From the NCBI GenBank assembly GCA_903842505.1, contig CAIMMI010000167.1, forward strand, positions 1-36,201: a stretch of DNA of 36,201 bases, in the 5' to 3' direction. The translations under genes were made by a program, and so were the position numbers. Numbering within the stretch: position 1 is the stretch's first letter; every line of letters begins with the position of its first letter. Below are positions 3,120-15,282 of this stretch, in pieces. The stretch is from an uncultured Verrucomicrobiota bacterium. Lineage in GTDB: Bacteria; Verrucomicrobiota; Verrucomicrobiia; Limisphaerales; UBA9464. The notes beneath the pieces were generated by a model. It had not been told where the DNA came from. It did no database searches and saw only the letters and a program-made list of their open reading frames with translations.

Positions 3120-4817
3120 TCATCCCTTGGAAGGGCTCACGGTTCCGGTCGGCGACTCGCGCTTGGCGGGGCGTTTCCGTGGCCCATTGAGCAGGGAGCC
3201 GATCGGCGTGTAGCGGACCAGGTATTGGTAGGTCAGCAGCAGGAAGCCGGTCAGGAGGATCGACAACAGCGGCCACTTGATCCAGACCGACACCGGCCAC
3301 GTGTGGATTACCGCCTGGGCTGCGATACAGAGCGGCAGATGGGCGAGGTAGAGCCAGTAGGAGGAATCCGAAAGATAACGGAGCGTCTCGTTCTCGCGGG
3401 TGAGCACGGAGCGGAACATGCCCATGCAACCGAACGCCATGAGCCAGGCGTACAGCGCCTGGAAGGCCACCGCCGTCCCATGGAAGTACTTTTGGGGAAG
3501 GATCGAACCACGGAAGCCGAAGGTGCCGGTCGACAATTCGAGTCCAATCGGGAACACCACCAACAACGTGACGGGAAGCGTCCACCGCCAATGCCTGCCG
3601 AGCTTCCCGGTCGTATCGCGGGCGTCGTGGTAGGCGACCCCGAAAAAGAAGAAGAGCGCGTAATAAACGAACACGTGCGGCATCGGAAGGATGCCCATGG
3701 CTGTATCCGGACCGAAATCGCCGTCGCCGGATCCCATGAACCACCCGGGAAGCATGGTCAGCGGGACCAACCAAATCAGGGTCGACGGTGACAAGGTCAG
3801 CCAGGCAGGGGTGGTCTTCCAACCCAGCTTGTCCGCCAAGAGCGCATAGAGGCAAAAGACCCCCACCAGCCACACCAGGAACCAGAGGAACCATACCAGG
3901 ATGAACACCGGCAGTTCCGTGAGGCCCCTGTATATTTCGCGCAGTTTGGCGGCTCCGTTTGAAGGTTGGGTGCTGGAAACGGCCGAGCCTTTGGCCCCCA
4001 AGGCCTCGAGCTGCTGGACGATTTTCTCGCGTCCCTTCAGGACCTTTTCCTTATCGGCGGGGAGGCTGAGGAGACCCGCGATGTACTGAACCACCTCAAA
4101 GCTTTGCGATGCGCTCTTCAGCGGGGATTCACCCGAGAAACTGGCGGCATTCACATCGGCGCCCTTTTGGACCAATAGGTCAACGACGTCGGCCTCGCCC
4201 ATGAAGGCGGCGGCGTGCAAGGCAGTTCCTCCGTCGCGATTGCGATCCATCACGTTGGCACCCCGCTCGATCAGGACGGCGGCGATATCCCTGCGCCCTG
4301 TCAAGGCGGCCCAGGTAAGCGGCGTGGTCCCATACGCGGGATGCAGGTTGGTGAGTGCGCCTGGCACCTTGAGGTGTTCGTCCAAGGCCGTGGCATCGCC
4401 CTGTCGGATCGCGGACCAGATATTGGCGGCGGCGGGTTCGGGGCCCTTGGATTTCTGGTTTTGGGCGGATGCGAAGTTACTGGCCCAGATCATGGCAGGA
4501 ACGATCGTCACCAGACCCAGGAGACAGGGGATCAGGACGCGTCGGAAGCGGTGCCAGATCAAGGCCTTCAGGCCCTTCTGACGCCAGAGCATGGCGGTGA
4601 AGAAACCACTGACCAGCATGAACAACTGCATGCGGAACCCATGGACAAACGCCTGGAAGACATAGGCGGATTTGCTCTGGCTGACATCGTTCACCATCCA
4701 GGGGAAGCCCAGGGCGAAGGAGAGAGCGACATGATAGGCGATGCCCAGGAGCATGGCGATCGCCCGGAGGGCATCGAGGTCATGTCGACGTTCGTTGGGC
4801 GCTGGAGTGGTACTCAT
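3120..4817 (-). CDS. Acyltransferase family 3 (OafA/OpgC-like) membrane protein with inserted ankyrin repeats
   Basis: The protein has 565 residues from the ATG at 4817; an in-frame TTG lies two codons earlier. The N-terminus has the family signature RRHDLDALRAIAM followed by the conserved His in IAYHVALSF. Three membrane segments follow at about 12-37, 50-73 and 92-114. Residues about 125-260 are then a soluble block with ankyrin repeats (TPLTWAALTGRRDIAAVLIE, TALHAAAFMGEADVVDLLVQ and a third partial unit). Several membrane segments resume at about 300 and run to about 535. Family members move acyl groups such as succinyl or acetyl onto periplasmic glucans or surface polysaccharide. The basic RFRR loop before the third segment is cytoplasmic by the positive-inside rule, so the ankyrin block should face the periplasm. 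The acceptor is unknown. It lies between the ThuA and GH101-like genes on the same strand, with gaps of 131 and 151 bp. Confidence 0.88.
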   Translation of the reverse strand: MSTTPAPNERRHDLDALRAIAMLLGIAYHVALSFALGFPWMVNDVSQSKSAYVFQAFVHGFRMQLFMLVSGFFTAMLWRQKGLKALIWHRFRRVLIPCLLGLVTIVPAMIWASNFASAQNQKSKGPEPAAANIWSAIRQGDATALDEHLKVPGALTNLHPAYGTTPLTWAALTGRRDIAAVLIERGANVMDRNRDGGTALHAAAFMGEADVVDLLVQKGADVNAASFSGESPLKSASQSFEVVQYIAGLLSLPADKEKVLKGREKIVQQLEALGAKGSAVSSTQPSNGAAKLREIYRGLTELPVFILVWFLWFLVWLVGVFCLYALLADKLGWKTTPAWLTLSPSTLIWLVPLTMLPGWFMGSGDGDFGPDTAMGILPMPHVFVYYALFFFFGVAYHDARDTTGKLGRHWRWTLPVTLLVVFPIGLELSTGTFGFRGSILPQKYFHGTAVAFQALYAWLMAFGCMGMFRSVLTRENETLRYLSDSSYWLYLAHLPLCIAAQAVIHTWPVSVWIKWPLLSILLTGFLLLTYQYLVRYTPIGSLLNGPRKRPAKRESPTGTVSPSKG

Positions 4818-4881
4818 CTTCAAATCAACTCAGGATTCAGGTTGGCAACCGTAGGCGACGCCCGCGGACTCGGCTGGGAGA

Positions 4882-7150: not shown

Positions 7151-9043
7151 TCAGATCTCCACCTGCATGCCGAGCTCGACGACGCGGTTGGCGGGGAGAC
7201 GGAAGAAGGCGGTGGCGCTCTGGGCGTTGCGGGCCATGACGGCGAAGAGGTGCTCGCGCCAGAGGGCCATGCCGGCCTCGCGGGCGGGAATGATCGTCTC
7301 GCGGCTCAGGAAGAACGTGGTCTCGGTCTCCTTGAACTCGAGTCCCTTCTGCGCGCAGATCGCGAGCACGGACGGGACGTCCGGGTCTTCGAAGAAGCCG
7401 AATCGGGCCCGGACGCGCCAGAATCCGTGGGGAAGCTTCTCGATTTCGACGCGTTCCTCGGCGGCGACGCGGGGGTCTTCATCGACGTGAATGGTCAGGA
7501 AGACGATCCGGCGATGAAGGACCTTGTTGTGTTTCAGGTTGTGGAGGAGGGCGAGCGGGGTGCCGTCCGAGTTGCCGGCCATGTACACGGCGGTGCCGTC
7601 CACGCGGGACGGTTGGCGGCGTTCGATGCTCTCGATGAACTTGTCGGCGGGGATGGAGCTGGAGCGGACGCGTTGCCAGAGGAGCTGTCGGCCGCGCTTC
7701 CAGGTGGCCATCAGGGTGAAAAGCGCCACACCAACGACCAGTGGGAACCAACCGCCGTGGGCAATCTTGAGGGCATTGGCGCCGAAGAAGGCCATCTCGA
7801 TCACAAAAGCCGGGATGCAGACGATCGCGGAGAGCCACCAGGGCCAGTTCCAGAGCCGCCGGGCGGCAAAGTGGAACAGGAGCGTGGTGATGCCCATGGT
7901 GAGGGTGACGGCGATGCCGTAGGCGGCCGCGAGGTTGGAGGAAGACCGGAATTCGAGGACGAGACCGAGGCAGGCAATGGCCAGGGCCATGTTGACCTGG
8001 GGCAGATAGATCTGGCCGCGCTCACGTTCCGAAGTGTGTTCGATGGCGAGGCGCGGGATGTAACCGAGCTGGATGCCCTGCATGGTCAGGGAGAAGGCAC
8101 CGCTGATGAGGGCCTGCGAGGCAATGACGGCGGCGGCAGTGGCGAGGGCCACGAGCGGGATGAGGGCCCACTTGGGGGCGAGGTTGTAAAAGGGGTTCTG
8201 GGCAAGGCCCGGGTCGTGGAGCAGGAGGGCGCCCTGGCCGAGGTAGTTCAGGATGAGGGCCGGCAGCACCATGCTGAACCAGGCCATCCGGATCGGCCGT
8301 CGGCCGAAGTGCCCCATGTCCGCGTACAACGCCTCGCCACCCGTCACGACGAGGAAGACGGAACCGAGGATCGGGAACACCTTCCAGCGGCCTTCCGCGA
8401 GGAACTGGACCGCATGCCAGGGATTCAACGCGGAAAGGACCGCCGGCTCCCGCAGGATCCCACGCACTCCCAGCACACTGATCACGGCGAACCAGACGAT
8501 CATGATCGGCCCGAAGACGCGGCCGACGGCGCCGGTACCGGCCCGTTGCGCCATGAAGAGACCGGTCAGGATGACCAGGGTGATGGGCACCACCGCGTCC
8601 TTGAGCTTCGGGGTGAGGACATTCAAGCCCTCGACGGCGCCCAGGACCGAAACCGCCGGGGTGATCATGCCGTCCCCATAGAGCAGGGCGGCACCGAAAA
8701 GGCCCAGGGCAACCATCACCTTGGGAATCCACGCCTTGCCATCGTCCATGCCCCGCTTCTCGGGGAACGCCAGGGAGAGCAGGGCCAGGATGCCGCCCTC
8801 GCCCTTGTTGTCCGCCCGCATGACGAACATGATGTACTTGATCGAGACGATCAGCAGGAGGGACCAGACAAAGAGGGACAGGACCCCGAGCACGCTGCCA
8901 GGCGTGACCGGCAAAGCGTGAACGCCGTCAAAGCACTCGCGCAAGGCGTAGAGGGGACTCGTCCCGATGTCCCCGTAGACCACCCCAAGCGCAGCCAAGG
9001 TCAGCCCGGCCAGCCGCCACCCCCCCGAATCGTTGGTTTGCAT
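7151..9043 (-). CDS. kup: Kup/HAK/KT low-affinity potassium transporter
   Basis: This is a full-length KUP protein of 630 residues, the usual length, starting at an ATG at 9043. The family hallmark GVVYGDIGTSPLYAL is at about residues 20-34. IKYIMFVMRADNKGEGGI follows at about 70-87, and YGDGMITPAVSVLGAVEGL at about 120-138. About twelve hydrophobic segments fill residues 10-450, and a soluble C-terminal domain of about 170 residues follows. It carries out proton-coupled K+ uptake across the inner membrane. It stands alone, with large gaps on both sides, and no c-di-AMP-responsive element is visible upstream. The long open frame on the opposite strand is a codon-bias shadow. Confidence 0.96.
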   Translation of the reverse strand: MQTNDSGGWRLAGLTLAALGVVYGDIGTSPLYALRECFDGVHALPVTPGSVLGVLSLFVWSLLLIVSIKYIMFVMRADNKGEGGILALLSLAFPEKRGMDDGKAWIPKVMVALGLFGAALLYGDGMITPAVSVLGAVEGLNVLTPKLKDAVVPITLVILTGLFMAQRAGTGAVGRVFGPIMIVWFAVISVLGVRGILREPAVLSALNPWHAVQFLAEGRWKVFPILGSVFLVVTGGEALYADMGHFGRRPIRMAWFSMVLPALILNYLGQGALLLHDPGLAQNPFYNLAPKWALIPLVALATAAAVIASQALISGAFSLTMQGIQLGYIPRLAIEHTSERERGQIYLPQVNMALAIACLGLVLEFRSSSNLAAAYGIAVTLTMGITTLLFHFAARRLWNWPWWLSAIVCIPAFVIEMAFFGANALKIAHGGWFPLVVGVALFTLMATWKRGRQLLWQRVRSSSIPADKFIESIERRQPSRVDGTAVYMAGNSDGTPLALLHNLKHNKVLHRRIVFLTIHVDEDPRVAAEERVEIEKLPHGFWRVRARFGFFEDPDVPSVLAICAQKGLEFKETETTFFLSRETIIPAREAGMALWREHLFAVMARNAQSATAFFRLPANRVVELGMQVEI

Positions 9044-9443: not shown

Positions 9444-9507
9444 TGTAGGCCGGGTGCCCTCACCCGGCGGGGTGGAGGAAGCGCCGCGTGGGGGCACGCG
9501 GCCTACA
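9444..9507. repeat. Double-hairpin palindromic repeat, copy 1
   Basis: The element begins TGTAGGCCG and ends with its exact complement CGGCCTACA. Each half folds into its own 7-bp hairpin: CCGGGTG-CCCT-CACCCGG on the left and CCGCGTG-GGGG-CACGCGG on the right. The two arms also pair with each other over 26 nt with only three differences. A second copy is at 31132-31194. The layout recalls paired REP elements. Confidence 0.85.
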
Positions 9508-9560
9508 ATTGGGGATTGCCCAGGTTCAAACGCGAAACGGATGGGTTCGAACTCCGAGGC

Positions 9561-9581
9561 GGCTCGACGTCTCGCCCCACC
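9561..9581 (+). repeat. Dispersed intergenic motif, short copy B
   Basis: The sequence GGCTCGACG followed by TCTCGCCCCACC matches copy A at 6986-7013 except for loss of the GAG triplet and the outer bases. Confidence 0.5.
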
Positions 9582-9652
9582 GATTCCTTGGGGCAGTTCC
9601 GGAGCGCCCGGCTTCCATGGCACCGGCAGTTCTGGCTAGGGTTGTCGGACAC

Positions 9653-10849
9653 GTGATTCACGAACTGGATGTCGTTGTGCTGGGGGGAGGGGCGGCCGGG
9701 CTGTTCTGCGCCCGGGTGGCTGGGCTCAACGGGCGGTCCGTTGCCGTCCTCGAGCATCAGGCCCGCGCCGGCAACAAGATCCTGATCTCGGGCGGTGGGC
9801 GTTGCAATTTCACCAACCTCGACGCCACCTCGGCGAACTACGTCACCCACGGCAGCCCCCACTTTACCAAGTCCGCCCTGGCGCGATATACGCCCGCGGA
9901 CTTCCTGCGGTTGGTCGAGCAGCACGGCATCGCCTGGCACGAACGCAAGCACCGCCAACTGTTCTGCGACCAGAGTTCGCGTCAGATCCTGTCCCTGCTG
10001 GAATCCGAGTGCGCCGAGGCCGGCGTCCAGATCCGGACCCAATGCCGGATCCTGTCGGTCGAGCGGTCGCATCCGGCCGACGTCCGACCGTGGGAGATCG
10101 CCACGTCCTTGGGCACTTTCCGGGCGTCGAGCGTGGTGGTGGCCTGCGGCGGGCTGTCGTTTCCAAAGCTGGGGGCGACGCCGTTCGGATACGGGATTGC
10201 GCGACAGTTTGGGCTTCGGGTGATCGACCCGCGGCCGGGGTTGGTACCATTGACGTGGAAGCCTACGGAGTCGGCGCTGTTTGCGGACCTGAGCGGGGTT
10301 TCGATCGAGTGCGAAACGCAGGCTGGACCGGATACGCCCCAGTTCCGGGAGGCGGTCCTGTTCACGCACCGGGGACTGAGTGGACCGGCCATCCTGCAGG
10401 TGTCGTCGCATCGCACGCCGGAAGAACCCATCCATGTGAACCTTCTGCCGGGCATCGACATTCCCGCATGGCTGACGGACCGCCAAAGACTGACCCAGAC
10501 CCCGCGCCAGGCGCTTCGGACGCTGTGGCCGGACCGACTGGCGCAGGCGTGGTGCAGTCGGGGGATTCCCGACCGCCCCCTGGCGCAGCTTTCGCGGAAA
10601 GATCTTGAAGAACTGGCCCGGCAACTGGGCTCGTGGACGATCCAACCGGCCGGGGACGAAGGCTACCCGAAGGCGGAGGTCACGATCGGCGGCGTGGACA
10701 CGGCGGAGCTTTCGTCGAAGACCCTGGAGAGCCGGAAGGTGCCGGGTCTTTTCTTCGTGGGGGAGGTGGTGGACGTGACGGGATGGCTCGGAGGATTCAA
10801 TTTCCAGTGGGCGTGGGCTTCGGGGCACGCAGCGGGGAGCGCTGCCTGA
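9653..10849 (+). CDS. HI0933/YhiN (BaiN)-family NAD(P)/FAD-dependent flavoprotein
   Basis: The predicted protein has 398 residues if it starts at the GTG at 9653. The FAD-binding Rossmann motif DVVVLGGGAAGLFCAR then begins at residue 6, as in E. coli YhiN. An ATG at 9617 adds 12 residues and is the alternative. The second family hallmark, KILISGGGRCNFTN, follows at about residue 43. VVVACGGLSFPKLGATPFGY lies in the middle, and the C-terminus has the flavin-closing GLFFVGEVVDVTGWLGGFNFQWAWASG. Family members are flavin reductases acting on largely unknown substrates; BaiN of gut clostridia was proposed to reduce bile-acid intermediates. It is followed by a hairpin and appears monocistronic. 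Confidence 0.93.
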   Translation: MIHELDVVVLGGGAAGLFCARVAGLNGRSVAVLEHQARAGNKILISGGGRCNFTNLDATSANYVTHGSPHFTKSALARYTPADFLRLVEQHGIAWHERKHRQLFCDQSSRQILSLLESECAEAGVQIRTQCRILSVERSHPADVRPWEIATSLGTFRASSVVVACGGLSFPKLGATPFGYGIARQFGLRVIDPRPGLVPLTWKPTESALFADLSGVSIECETQAGPDTPQFREAVLFTHRGLSGPAILQVSSHRTPEEPIHVNLLPGIDIPAWLTDRQRLTQTPRQALRTLWPDRLAQAWCSRGIPDRPLAQLSRKDLEELARQLGSWTIQPAGDEGYPKAEVTIGGVDTAELSSKTLESRKVPGLFFVGEVVDVTGWLGGFNFQWAWASGHAAGSAA

Positions 10850-10923: not shown

Positions 10924-11481
10924 ATGTACGGGGTGGTGAACAGGGCCCTCGAGGATCTCGTCTGCACCAAACACGGAGAAAATAAGTGGTTGCAGATCAA
11001 GGAGAAGGCTGGAGTTGACGAGGATATGTTCCTCAGCCTCCAGTCGTATCCGGATGCCATGACCTACCAATTGGTGAGTGCCACCAGCCAGGTCCTTGGG
11101 CTCACCTCCCAGCAGGTCCTCCACGCCTTCGGTCGCCATTGGATCTTGAAGACCGCCCGGGAAGACTTTGGTGAACTGCTCACCGCAAATGGGCGAACCC
11201 TCCCCGACTTCATCCAAGGCCTCCCCAACTTCTGTACCCGGGTCAAACTGATGTTACCCAACGCGCAGCCGCCCCGATTGTCGGTGACGGACCGCACCGA
11301 CAACAGTCTGGTCCTGCACTCCCAAAGCCACCGCGAGGGCCTCGCGGATTTTGTCGTCGGGCTGCTGGATGGGCTTGGGGAACTCTATGCCATCCCGGTT
11401 CGGATTGAACACAGGACACGGCGCAACGGGGAGTCCCTCGTTGATCTTTTCCGGGTTTCCTGGGGACCCGAACATCCCTGA
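10924..11481 (+). CDS. H-NOX (haem-NO-binding, HNOB) domain protein lacking the canonical haem-ligand His
   Basis: This is a stand-alone H-NOX domain of 185 residues, the usual size. It opens with the family start MYGVVNRALEDLV and ends with the family's last strand region. H-NOX proteins bind haem and sense NO or O2 in trans with a partner kinase or cyclase. Aligned by eye with soluble guanylate cyclase beta1, the LDALH segment that carries proximal His105 reads LPNFC here, so Cys104 (TGT at 11233-11235) replaces the ligand. The YxSxR propionate-binding motif reads Ser133-Gln-Ser135-His-Arg137, so its Tyr is lost but Ser and Arg remain. The rest of the fold looks intact, which argues against decay. 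Either haem is held by Cys, or the domain binds another ligand or none. The HNOBA kinase starts 21 bp downstream, so the two are almost surely co-transcribed and act together. Confidence 0.93.
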   Translation: MYGVVNRALEDLVCTKHGENKWLQIKEKAGVDEDMFLSLQSYPDAMTYQLVSATSQVLGLTSQQVLHAFGRHWILKTAREDFGELLTANGRTLPDFIQGLPNFCTRVKLMLPNAQPPRLSVTDRTDNSLVLHSQSHREGLADFVVGLLDGLGELYAIPVRIEHRTRRNGESLVDLFRVSWGPEHP

Positions 11482-11502: not shown

Positions 11503-14500
11503 ATGGACACAACGTCGCCAACCTCTGTTTCCCAGATCCGGGTCGGGCTCACTCCCGCCCAGTTCGCGGTCGCGTTTCCATTCCATTTCGCCTGCTCCCC
11601 GGACGGCTCGATCATCCAGACCGGGGCTTCGCTGCTACGGTTGTGCCCGGAACTCGTTCAATTCCCGAAGTTCAACGAAGTCCTTCGCCTTCGCGAACCG
11701 GAGATCCCGGAGCCGATCACGATGGAAGCCATCCGGGAATGTGCGCCCTTTTTGTTCCTGATCCAGATCCCGGGCACGGATGTCATGCTGCGCGGGCAGG
11801 TGATTCCGTTGGAGGATGGGGGGCTGGTATTCCTGGGGTCCCCGTGGCTGACGGATATCGCGACGCTGCGCCAACTCGGTTTGCTGCTCGATGACTTTGC
11901 CATCCATGACCCGGCCCTGGACCTCCTGCAGAGCATCCAGGCCCAGAAGGCGGCCGTCTCGGATCTCCAGAAGCTGGCCGAGCGCCTGAGGCACCAGCGG
12001 GCGGAACTGACGGCAGCCAACCGCCTGTTGCAGTCCCAGTCCGTCGAAACCCAGAAGCTCGCCCTCGTCGCCGACCGGACCGATCAGGCGGTGATCATCA
12101 CCGATCAATGGGGAATGATCGAGTGGGTCAACGCCGGGTTTGTCCGCCAGACCGGCTACACCTTCGAGGAGGCACGGGGACGCAAGCCCGGAAGCCTGCT
12201 CCAGGGTCCGGAGACGGATCCGCGGTCCGTGGCCCACATCCGGGAAAAGCTGGCTGCAGGTGAACCGATCGAGATCGAGATCCTCAACTACCACAAGAAT
12301 GGCCAGAAGTACTGGCTGCATCTGGAAATCCAGCCGATCCGGGACGCGTCGGGCCAGATCAGCAACTTCATGGCCCTGGAACGGGACATCACGGAACGGG
12401 TCCGCACCGAATATCGCCGCCGACTCCAGTACAAGGTGTCCCAAGCCCTGACCGACTCCCCGACGATCGGGGTCGGCACGGCCCAGTGCCTGCAGGCGAT
12501 CGCGAAGGTCCTCGGATGGCCCGGGGCGGTGTTCTGGTCGCCTCAGGAGGGACAGCGGTTGCGGGCGGAATCTTCCTGGTTTGCGACGGATCGCGATTAC
12601 TCGCTCCTGCGGACGACGTTGGAGCCGTTCTGCCCGCAGTTGGGGGAATGCCTCCCGGGCCGGGTCTGGGAGCAGGGCCAACCCACGTGGGTCACCTGGG
12701 TCTCCAAGGTTTCCGACGACCCATGGCACGAGGCCGCGCGGACGCTGGGCATCAAGACGGCCTGTGCGTTCCCCTGCAAGGTGGGCGACAAATTCTTCGG
12801 CATCATCGAACTCCTTTCTTCGCAGGCGGAGGAACCGGATCAGGACCTCATCCAGCTCTTCAGCTCGCTCGGAAATCAGGTGGGCCAGTTTATCGAACGG
12901 AAGCTGGCCGAGGCAGAGATCGAACAGCAGCGGGACTTCGCGCTCCAGGTGATGAATGCCATGGGTCAGGGCCTGACCGTGAGCGATGAGAAGGGGGTCT
13001 TCACCTTCGCCAACGCCGCCTATGCCCGGCTCGTCGGTTGCCAACCCGAACAACTGATCGGGCGGAAACCCCACGATTTCACATTCGACGAAGACATCCC
13101 AAAACTTGAGGCGGTCGCGAAGGCGCGCCTCGAAGGAGAATCTTCAACCCTTGAACTCCGCATCCGCCGCCCCGATGGCACTCCGGTTTACGCGCTCGTA
13201 ACCGGCGTTCCCCACCGCAGGGATGGGCGTGTGGTTGGGTCGATTGCCACAATCACCGACTTGACCGAACGGCGGAAGGTGGAGATCGAACTCCAACGCA
13301 CGAAGGAGCAGGCCGAGGATGCCAACCGGGCCAAGAGCGAGTTCCTCGCCACCATGAGCCATGAGATCCGCACCCCGATGAACGGCATCATCGGCATGTC
13401 GGGTCTCCTTCTTGATTCCCAGCTTTCCTCCCACCAGCAGGAAATGGTCGAAGCCGTCCGGACGTCCGGTGAAGCGCTCATGTCCATCATCGAGGACGTG
13501 CTCGACTTCTCAAAGATCGAGGCCTCCAGGGTCGAGATCCTCTCGGAGGAGTTCGAACTCGACGTCATCGTCGAGAGCGTCATGGACCTGTTCGCGCAGA
13601 AGTCCATTGAGAAGGGCCTGGATCTCGTCGTCCACGTCCGCCCCGATGTCCCGGCCCGCGTGCGGGCGGACGCCGGCCGACTCCGACAAATCCTGCTCAA
13701 TCTGGTGGGCAACGCGGTCAAGTTCACCGAGTGCGGTCATGTCATCCTGCGGGTGTCCCGCGATTCCGCCTCCGATGGCCGTCAGAACCTCCGCTTTGAG
13801 GTCCTCGATTCCGGCATCGGGATGTCCCAGGAACAGATCTCCCGGCTGTTCGTTCCGTTCTCGCAAGCGGACGCGTCCACGACGCGACGGTTCGGTGGTA
13901 CGGGTCTGGGACTGGCCATCTGCAAGCGACTCATCGAGCTGATGGGAGGCAAGATGAACGAGGTCAGCTCGAACCCCGGGTCTGGATCCATCTTCAGCTT
14001 CCAGATTCCCGTCAGCGTTCCTCCCGGGGCAGACCGCTCCCAGTACCCCCCCATCCATGTGGTGGTCGCCGAGGACCACACCGAGACCCGGTTCGCACTC
14101 CGGGACCAACTCCTCTCGCTCGGCTCGGACCCAACCCTCTGCCGGAGCGAGGCCGAGTTGCTCGAGCAATTGCAGGGATCCCGGAAGCCGAACCTGCTCA
14201 TCATCGACCGGAACCTGTTCGGTCCCTCCACCGTGGATGCGCTCCAGGCACTGGCCTCCAGGCCGGATCGCCGGGCGCCCCGGGTTGTCCTGACCGGAAC
14301 CATCACGGACTCCGTCCGGCAGGGCAACCCGGTGCCCGGCGTGGAAAGCTTCCTTGCCAAACCGATCAAGCGGGCCGCTATCGCCTCGATCATCGATCGT
14401 ACCGTGTCCCGAACCGTCAGCCCGGTCCGGACTGCGGTTGCCACCAACAAGGATGCCCGAACCGCTCCCTCCACGCTCCGCATCCTCATCACCGAAGACA

Positions 14501-15282
14501 ACGACATCAACCGCCGCCTCACCACGCTGATACTCAACAAGCTCGGCTACAAAGCCGAACTGGTTGTCAACGGACGGGAGGCAGTCGAGGCCTGCGAGCG
14601 CAAGGTCTACGATGTGATCCTGATGGACTGCCACATGCCGGAGATGGACGGCTACGACGCCACGCGGGCGATCCGGCGGGCCGAGGCCGCGAATGCCGGG
14701 CGCCAGCGCGTCCGCATCATCGCCCTCACGGCTGCCGCCATGAGCGGCGAGCGCGAGCGCTGCCTGGCCGTCGGCATGGACGACTACGTGTCCAAGCCGG
14801 TGAAGCCGGATCTTCTGCAGGCAGCCTTGGATCGGGCGGCTGCCGACATTCAGTCGGTCCCCGATCCTCTCGGAACACAGCCTGAACCCGCTGCCGAGCC
14901 CAACCCGGCCGAGGACGTTTCCCGCGAACTCACAACCGTTCGGGAAACCTGTTTGGCCCTGGCCGACGAACTGGGAAGCGAAGGCGTGGTCGAACTCCTG
15001 GAGGCGTTCGTCTCGGACACCCCTCAACGGTTGATCGAACTCGACCGCCTTTCATCCAGCACGGACTTCGTGACGCTCCGCCGCGCCGCGCACTCGCTCA
15101 AGGGGAGCTTCGCGCTATTCGGCTTCTTCACGCTGGAAGCCCTGAGTCTGAACATCGAGATCGCCGCCTCGGAGGACCGCACCGATGGTCAGGTGGCCGC
15201 CGCCGCCAGCCTCCACTCGCGCTTTTCGCAACTGTTCCCCCAACTGCAGCAGATGGTTGAAGAGTTCAGATCCCACCCTTGA
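11503..15282 (+). CDS. HNOBA-PAS-GAF-PAS hybrid sensor histidine kinase with two receivers and Hpt
   Basis: This 1259-residue soluble kinase has no membrane segments. Residues 1 to about 165 are an HNOBA domain, the H-NOX-associated PAS-like module, with FPFHFACSPDG, MLRGQVIPL, FLGSPWL and DDFAIHDPALDLL. A coiled coil follows (about 150-185), then PAS (185-305), GAF (312-465) and a second PAS (477-590). The HisKA domain has phospho-acceptor His620 in MSHEIRTPMNG. The HATPase_c domain (about 720-838) has an N-box, DSGIGM and GTGLGLAI. Receiver 1 (852-970) has Asp902 in IIDRN. Receiver 2 (992-1112) has Asp1042 in LMDCHMPEMDG. A C-terminal Hpt has His1197 in AAHSLKGS. This is a complete internal His-Asp-His phosphorelay. 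The first PAS has GSLLQGPETD without the flavin-binding Cys, so it is not a LOV domain. No output regulator lies nearby. It presumably reads the H-NOX protein encoded just upstream. Confidence 0.95.
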   Translation: MDTTSPTSVSQIRVGLTPAQFAVAFPFHFACSPDGSIIQTGASLLRLCPELVQFPKFNEVLRLREPEIPEPITMEAIRECAPFLFLIQIPGTDVMLRGQVIPLEDGGLVFLGSPWLTDIATLRQLGLLLDDFAIHDPALDLLQSIQAQKAAVSDLQKLAERLRHQRAELTAANRLLQSQSVETQKLALVADRTDQAVIITDQWGMIEWVNAGFVRQTGYTFEEARGRKPGSLLQGPETDPRSVAHIREKLAAGEPIEIEILNYHKNGQKYWLHLEIQPIRDASGQISNFMALERDITERVRTEYRRRLQYKVSQALTDSPTIGVGTAQCLQAIAKVLGWPGAVFWSPQEGQRLRAESSWFATDRDYSLLRTTLEPFCPQLGECLPGRVWEQGQPTWVTWVSKVSDDPWHEAARTLGIKTACAFPCKVGDKFFGIIELLSSQAEEPDQDLIQLFSSLGNQVGQFIERKLAEAEIEQQRDFALQVMNAMGQGLTVSDEKGVFTFANAAYARLVGCQPEQLIGRKPHDFTFDEDIPKLEAVAKARLEGESSTLELRIRRPDGTPVYALVTGVPHRRDGRVVGSIATITDLTERRKVEIELQRTKEQAEDANRAKSEFLATMSHEIRTPMNGIIGMSGLLLDSQLSSHQQEMVEAVRTSGEALMSIIEDVLDFSKIEASRVEILSEEFELDVIVESVMDLFAQKSIEKGLDLVVHVRPDVPARVRADAGRLRQILLNLVGNAVKFTECGHVILRVSRDSASDGRQNLRFEVLDSGIGMSQEQISRLFVPFSQADASTTRRFGGTGLGLAICKRLIELMGGKMNEVSSNPGSGSIFSFQIPVSVPPGADRSQYPPIHVVVAEDHTETRFALRDQLLSLGSDPTLCRSEAELLEQLQGSRKPNLLIIDRNLFGPSTVDALQALASRPDRRAPRVVLTGTITDSVRQGNPVPGVESFLAKPIKRAAIASIIDRTVSRTVSPVRTAVATNKDARTAPSTLRILITEDNDINRRLTTLILNKLGYKAELVVNGREAVEACERKVYDVILMDCHMPEMDGYDATRAIRRAEAANAGRQRVRIIALTAAAMSGERERCLAVGMDDYVSKPVKPDLLQAALDRAAADIQSVPDPLGTQPEPAAEPNPAEDVSRELTTVRETCLALADELGSEGVVELLEAFVSDTPQRLIELDRLSSSTDFVTLRRAAHSLKGSFALFGFFTLEALSLNIEIAASEDRTDGQVAAAASLHSRFSQLFPQLQQMVEEFRSHP

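Follow-up and report, generated by a model that had tools for sequence, protein, structure and literature searches.

A bacterial H-NOX protein with cysteine at the haem-ligating histidine position beside an intact HNOBA hybrid kinase: a candidate natural haem-free pseudo-H-NOX

In H-NOX proteins, NO severs the link between haem iron and a proximal His, with movement of helix F and the subdomains (excerpts of PMC8196705 and PMC12329717). Rupture of the Fe-His bond is thought to be necessary for activation, but the same excerpts describe one H-NOX whose NO form leaves its kinase uninhibited, so that the rule has exceptions (PMC12329717). A survey of 598 H-NOX sequences, as excerpted, found the proximal His ‘absolutely conserved’ (PMC7108781), and the accessible portions of the open-licence literature contained no report of a natural Cys-bearing or His-less bacterial H-NOX. 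In human sGC, substituting Phe or Cys for His105 ‘completely abolishes’ the binding of haem and leaves the cyclase active, according to the available part of PMC9914232, which also gives Y135/S137/R139 as the residues holding the propionates. The beta1 H105C form solved by cryo-EM contains no haem and looks like the activated state (PMC8196705, in excerpt), and haem-free H105F sGC has raised basal activity (PMC4699393, in excerpt). Two natural systems are also relevant. The alpha subunit of sGC, in the sections available, is a natural pseudo-H-NOX fold, in human lacking the haem-ligating His and in moth lacking YxSxR, that is kept in the complex, its pocket filled by an N-terminal extension. 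The H-NOX of V. cholerae, a member of the 598-sequence set with the conserved proximal His, signals independently of haem and ligates Zn through Cys 149, 174 and 182 (PMC7108781, in excerpt). Here we describe a bacterial H-NOX in which the laboratory substitution that gives the haem-free, activated form of sGC has arisen by evolution, with the kinase partner kept.

The stretch of DNA analysed here, referred to as the window, comprises 36,201 nt of contig CAIMMI010000167.1 from the draft genome (362 contigs) of an uncultured Verrucomicrobiota bacterium. An ATG-start open reading frame on its forward strand (10924..11481) encodes a 185-residue protein that matches the Pfam HNOB profile (PF07700) at 163 of 163 positions (E 7.1e-44) and is the single H-NOX detected in this genome. 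The solved structures closest to it are those of the haem-binding Alr2278 from Nostoc sp. PCC 7120 (phmmer E 1.1e-42), which it resembles in fold and length. An AF2 model built on a nine-sequence alignment (pLDDT 85.2, pTM 0.81) returned H-NOX structures as its top PDB matches, with Nostoc H-NOX at TM 0.93, rmsd 1.5 Å and ~40% identity. The whole-domain profile match and the predicted fold together place the protein in the H-NOX/HNOB fold family. It begins at the ordinary Met1 of that family and, unlike sGC alpha, has no pocket-occluding N-terminal extension.

Two residues characteristic of haem-binding H-NOX proteins are replaced. In the phmmer alignment with Alr2278 (2o09, 4iae), the window segment ‘lpnfctrv’ pairs with ‘LDNLHARV’, which places Cys104 in the proximal His column, and ‘lhsqshregl’ pairs with ‘LHYQSTRAGL’, which places Ser133 at the Tyr of YxSxR; the alignment is gap-free around both. 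Where Alr2278 has His and YQSTR, the window protein thus has Cys and SQSHR, with the Tyr gone and the Ser and Arg present. The codons concerned are TGT for Cys104 (11233..11235, +; CAT in the orthologue described below) and TCC for Ser133 (11320..11322, +; TAC in the orthologue). A third, TTG for Leu119 (11278..11280, +; TTC in the orthologue), lies in a near-invariant Phe column. These three account for the differences at 3 of 13 columns with at least 95% conservation, whereas the orthologue, for which a smaller set gave 15 columns at this level, differs at none of them. The earlier note, made from the sequence alone, had assigned Cys104 and Ser133 to these two positions, and both assignments hold; its description of the remaining domain as intact needs correcting at column 119, where Leu stands for Phe. 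A different His in the proximal position, which that note had named as grounds for abandoning the idea, was looked for and none fits: the gap-free alignment rules out realignment, and the predicted helix 100-110 contains none of the protein’s His residues (17, 67, 72, 132, 136, 163 and 184). Sequencing error is also unlikely because CAT and TGT differ by two bases within one codon and two further near-invariant codons are altered. Its fold makes the window protein an H-NOX; judged by the residues at the two columns, it is not a haem-binding one. A PF07700 match alone does not show NO sensing, and the proximal-His column should be checked.

The rarity of the change was assessed in 139 distinct aligned H-NOX-like segments, 135 of which carry a letter at the proximal column. 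This residue is His in 133, Cys in the window protein and Thr in one other, and the Tyr column of YxSxR holds Tyr in 131 of the 135. The YxSxR motif is not absolute, with His for Tyr in two frames (both bearing the proximal His) and Thr for Ser in 43. The survey included 80 named loci listed of 479 confirmed relatives in genome contigs, all 80 with His at the proximal column, and frames from 58 relative, 50 family, 320 order, 387 phylum and 384 class genomes (overlapping sets, the window’s own genome among them); eight plasmid matches at 21-28% identity were left out of the count. A wider family of Cys-bearing H-NOX proteins was thus not found: homologues with Cys at this column beside HNOBA kinases, which the earlier note had proposed to collect, did not appear among the 135 frames, and the viral contigs searched held no such relatives. 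As far as seen in the frames examined, Cys104 therefore appears to be a change of one lineage rather than of the family, and the variant is known from one draft genome only.

Two side observations come from the same survey. The frame with Thr at the proximal column belongs to a divergent H-NOX-like domain (L159:830-2020, −, genome G198) that matches profile positions 42-161 over 119 residues with a Pfam E of 7e-9 and lacks the YxSxR Tyr; the order may thus have another natural H-NOX-like protein that lacks the His. In Planctomycetaceae RH-26jul17-133 (L107:5370-6543), H-NOX genes occur as a tandem pair, the second with His for Tyr at position 2 and both with the proximal His.

The closest comparison is provided by an orthologue from the same genus, Verrucomicrobiales bacterium D8_MAG_00040 (JAIXZE010000446.1; L037, matching the locus in genome G006). 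Both loci have the order kup, flavoprotein, hnox and HNOBA kinase. The Kup potassium transporter (7151..9043, −) is 91% identical between them and the HI0933-like flavoprotein (9488..10849, +; matched from residue 32, so its true start may be ~9581) is 83% identical, compared with 65.6% for H-NOX and 67-69% for the kinase. The two H-NOX proteins cluster in the tree with local support of 0.996, and the orthologue, also of 185 residues, has His104 and YQTHR. Since His and Tyr are both present at the same locus in this relative, the changes at 104 and 133 are lineage-specific, and the simplest history is one in which Cys104, Leu119 and Ser133 all postdate the split of the two lineages.

Twenty-one base pairs downstream of the H-NOX gene lies a gene (11503..15282, +) whose Pfam domains read HNOBA-PAS-GAF-PAS-HisKA-HATPase-REC-REC-Hpt, bearing out the hybrid histidine kinase that had been recognized there. 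Its HNOBA domain (PF07701, E 2.3e-17), encoded beside H-NOX, completes the usual H-NOX/HNOBA signalling pair. An HNOBA match accompanies H-NOX in 78 of 83 stretches examined, namely the window, the orthologue contig, the 80 named loci and L120, with the orthologue counted twice (G6 and L037) and with HNOBA possibly lost from stretches that stop at a contig end. The kinase departs from near-invariant columns at 0 of 13 positions in HNOBA, 0 of 30 in the kinase core and 0 of 13 in the second REC, and the one departure among nine in the Hpt is found in the orthologue too. The first REC shows many departures in both kinases, in an alignment of four sequences that is too small to judge.

From these observations we propose that the window protein is probably a pseudo-H-NOX that is naturally free of haem and has been retained as a partner held in the state that NO would otherwise produce. 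The His that would ligate the haem iron and the Tyr that would help to hold the propionates have been replaced in this lineage, so the protein would no longer take up haem and could not sense NO. The H-NOX fold would have been kept because it still binds the HNOBA domain of the adjacent kinase. In an ordinary H-NOX the signal arises when NO ruptures the Fe-His bond; here this bond could never form, so that the subunit would stay at all times in the NO-bound state or close to it. So locked, it would fix the basal setting of the kinase, and variable input, if any, would be supplied by the kinase’s own PAS and GAF domains. The nearest precedent, sGC beta1 H105C, carries the same substitution at the same column and is described in the accessible text as haem-free and activated-like; it is a laboratory cyclase mutant that retains the propionate Tyr, whereas the window protein is natural, kinase-adjacent and without that Tyr. 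The pseudo-H-NOX of sGC alpha is a looser functional parallel. The pair would thus offer a natural test of what an apo-H-NOX does to a kinase, and possibly a case of a sensor turned into a fixed regulatory subunit.

Several points count against haem loss. The engineered precedents come from sGC, which is ~30% identical and not bacterial. Pro117 is kept, as are Ser135 and Arg137 from the propionate motif, a retention not expected if the pocket were simply decaying. The S. oneidensis H-NOX variant H103G was solved in its Fe(II)CO state (2kil, by title), which indicates that in some conditions the scaffold can hold haem with no His from the protein. In other folds, haem is known to be ligated by thiolate. 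A sensor with thiolate-ligated haem, or a pocket that takes an amphipathic acid or a porphyrin other than haem, would be in keeping with the three retained residues. Nostoc H-NOX accepts the haem-mimetic drug BAY 60-2770 (4iae, by title), and haem-free sGC mutants show a response to protoporphyrin IX (PMC9914232, in excerpt). Given that the His105 to Cys change abolishes haem in sGC and that the propionate Tyr is also missing from the window protein, we regard this possibility as improbable.

Cys104 might instead act as a lone thiol in an emptied pocket, where its oxidation, nitrosation or persulfidation would move the proximal helix as NO binding does. A potentially reactive residue does sit exactly at the normal signal-generating site, and haem-free or haem-independent redox signalling by H-NOX Cys residues has been published (excerpts of PMC7108781 and PMC12329717). 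In the likeness of such haem-independent signalling by an H-NOX fold, V. cholerae H-NOX resembles the protein proposed here. The published cases use Zn-Cys3, however; the three Zn ligands of V. cholerae are absent from the window protein, whose only Cys residues are Cys14, common to the orthologue, and Cys104, so no partner Cys arose. A second Cys104 protein that could show conservation is likewise missing from the 135 frames, and this mechanism too is improbable. That Cys104 is an adapted switch for thiol or NO chemistry (or a thiolate haem sensor) on the signal helix, still driving the HNOBA hybrid kinase, is a doubtful proposition. Thiolate haem, redox or thiol sensing, another ligand and no ligand had been listed earlier in no order of preference; the loss of haem on His-to-Cys change in sGC, the missing propionate Tyr and the lack of a new Cys or Zn-Cys3 site favour the last and leave the thiolate and thiol options unsupported.

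A further explanation is that the gene is decaying: the ligand was lost recently, H-NOX is drifting towards loss and the kinase is already independent. Rates on the window branch bear on this and on the haem-free reading. In FastTree phylogenies, the H-NOX branch is 0.451 for the window and 0.108 for the orthologue, compared with 0.213 and 0.215 for HNOBA, so the rise is mainly in H-NOX, in favour of the haem-free reading. The excess on the window branch is small in the kinase core (0.198 versus 0.150) and the second REC (0.117 versus 0.105). It is larger, and counts against that reading, in PAS-GAF-PAS (0.438 versus 0.179), the first REC (0.343 versus 0.228, three sequences) and the whole kinase (0.327 versus 0.217, nine sequences). 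Whichever of the 19 listed outgroups is used, sites unique to the window H-NOX outnumber those unique to the orthologue, at p<0.05 for 12 of them; these outgroups are related to each other and not independent. Over 122 outgroups the median numbers of unique sites are 23 and 10 in H-NOX and 6 and 6 in the HNOBA domain. Polarization assigned 31 H-NOX changes to the window lineage and 10 to the orthologue lineage, with 24 ambiguous. The unique-site and polarized counts lend decay some weight. The frame is open, with neither stop nor frameshift, and of the same length as in the orthologue. This cannot serve as proof of function, since neutral simulation gave a probability of 0.40 for no stop at 0.1 substitutions per site.

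Codon models point to a faster yet still constrained gene. Under an equal-time condition, omega for H-NOX is 0.054 in the window and 0.014 in the orthologue (2dlnL 17.5), with 0.026 and 0.023 for HNOBA (0.13) and 0.036 and 0.019 for the kinase core (4.1). Without that condition the H-NOX contrast falls to 2dlnL 1.8; it is significant under equal time only, because synonymous sites are saturated, and as the time estimates reach their bound, only the contrast and not the omega values can be used. Crude pairwise dN/dS, averaged over both lineages, is 0.233 for H-NOX, 0.232 for the kinase and 0.049 and 0.080 for the flanking genes. Omega = 1 on the window H-NOX branch was rejected (2dlnL 15.3 and 14.3), again with saturated synonymous sites, so the gene shows neither the broken frame nor the neutral evolution of a pseudogene. 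When columns 104, 119 and 133 are excluded, a choice made partly after seeing the data (104 and 133 from the earlier note, 119 from the follow-up), the window lineage changed at 1 of the 37 columns conserved to at least 80% and at 27 of the 144 remaining columns (Fisher p 0.019). Significance is lost if the threshold is raised to 90% or 95%, or if the three columns are put back. The window H-NOX is therefore evolving faster than its orthologue and, by these sequence comparisons, is still constrained. Rejected neutrality, the nearly untouched columns at the 80% level outside these three and the intact frame make decay unlikely, and the earlier impression that the pair is in use is upheld as far as the constraint tests reach.

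The distribution of HNOBA kinases bears on both decay and the preferred haem-free reading. In the order, H-NOX lies within 1.5 kb at 47 of 60 HNOBA places and is absent at 13, contig ends not being checked. In the same genus, genome G003 encodes an HNOBA-HisKA-HATPase-REC-REC-Hpt kinase (L201:4849-7293) with no H-NOX neighbour, and a search of that genome found no H-NOX, as would suit a kinase already independent of its sensor. A haem sensor next door is thus not indispensable for an HNOBA kinase to exist. The genus might form a series from haem sensor (G006, G007) through loss of the haem site (window) to no H-NOX (G003), an ordering that we infer, as the G003 kinase, with identity of only 41-46%, is not necessarily the same orthologue. 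Conversely, 15 of 62 HNOB places in the order have no nearby HNOBA match, for example in G153 and G198, contig ends again not being checked.

Haem shortage as the cause of the substitutions is not cleanly supported, since HemA and haem-copper oxidases are present in the window genome. Ferrochelatase (PF00762) was not found in that genome (G000), nor in the His-bearing G006 and G007. Across nine genomes of the genus, ferrochelatase is present in three, and HemA (PF05201) and haem-copper oxidase (PF00115) in all nine. The gaps may reflect a different terminal step in haem synthesis, uptake of haem or incomplete assembly.

A scan for promoters and terminators near the H-NOX/kinase pair gave about as many sites as shuffled sequence. 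Elsewhere in the window, an acyltransferase-3 family protein (3120-4823, −) matches its profile in two parts, positions 2-93 and 118-322, with a block of ankyrin repeats (residues ~138-236) splitting the match.
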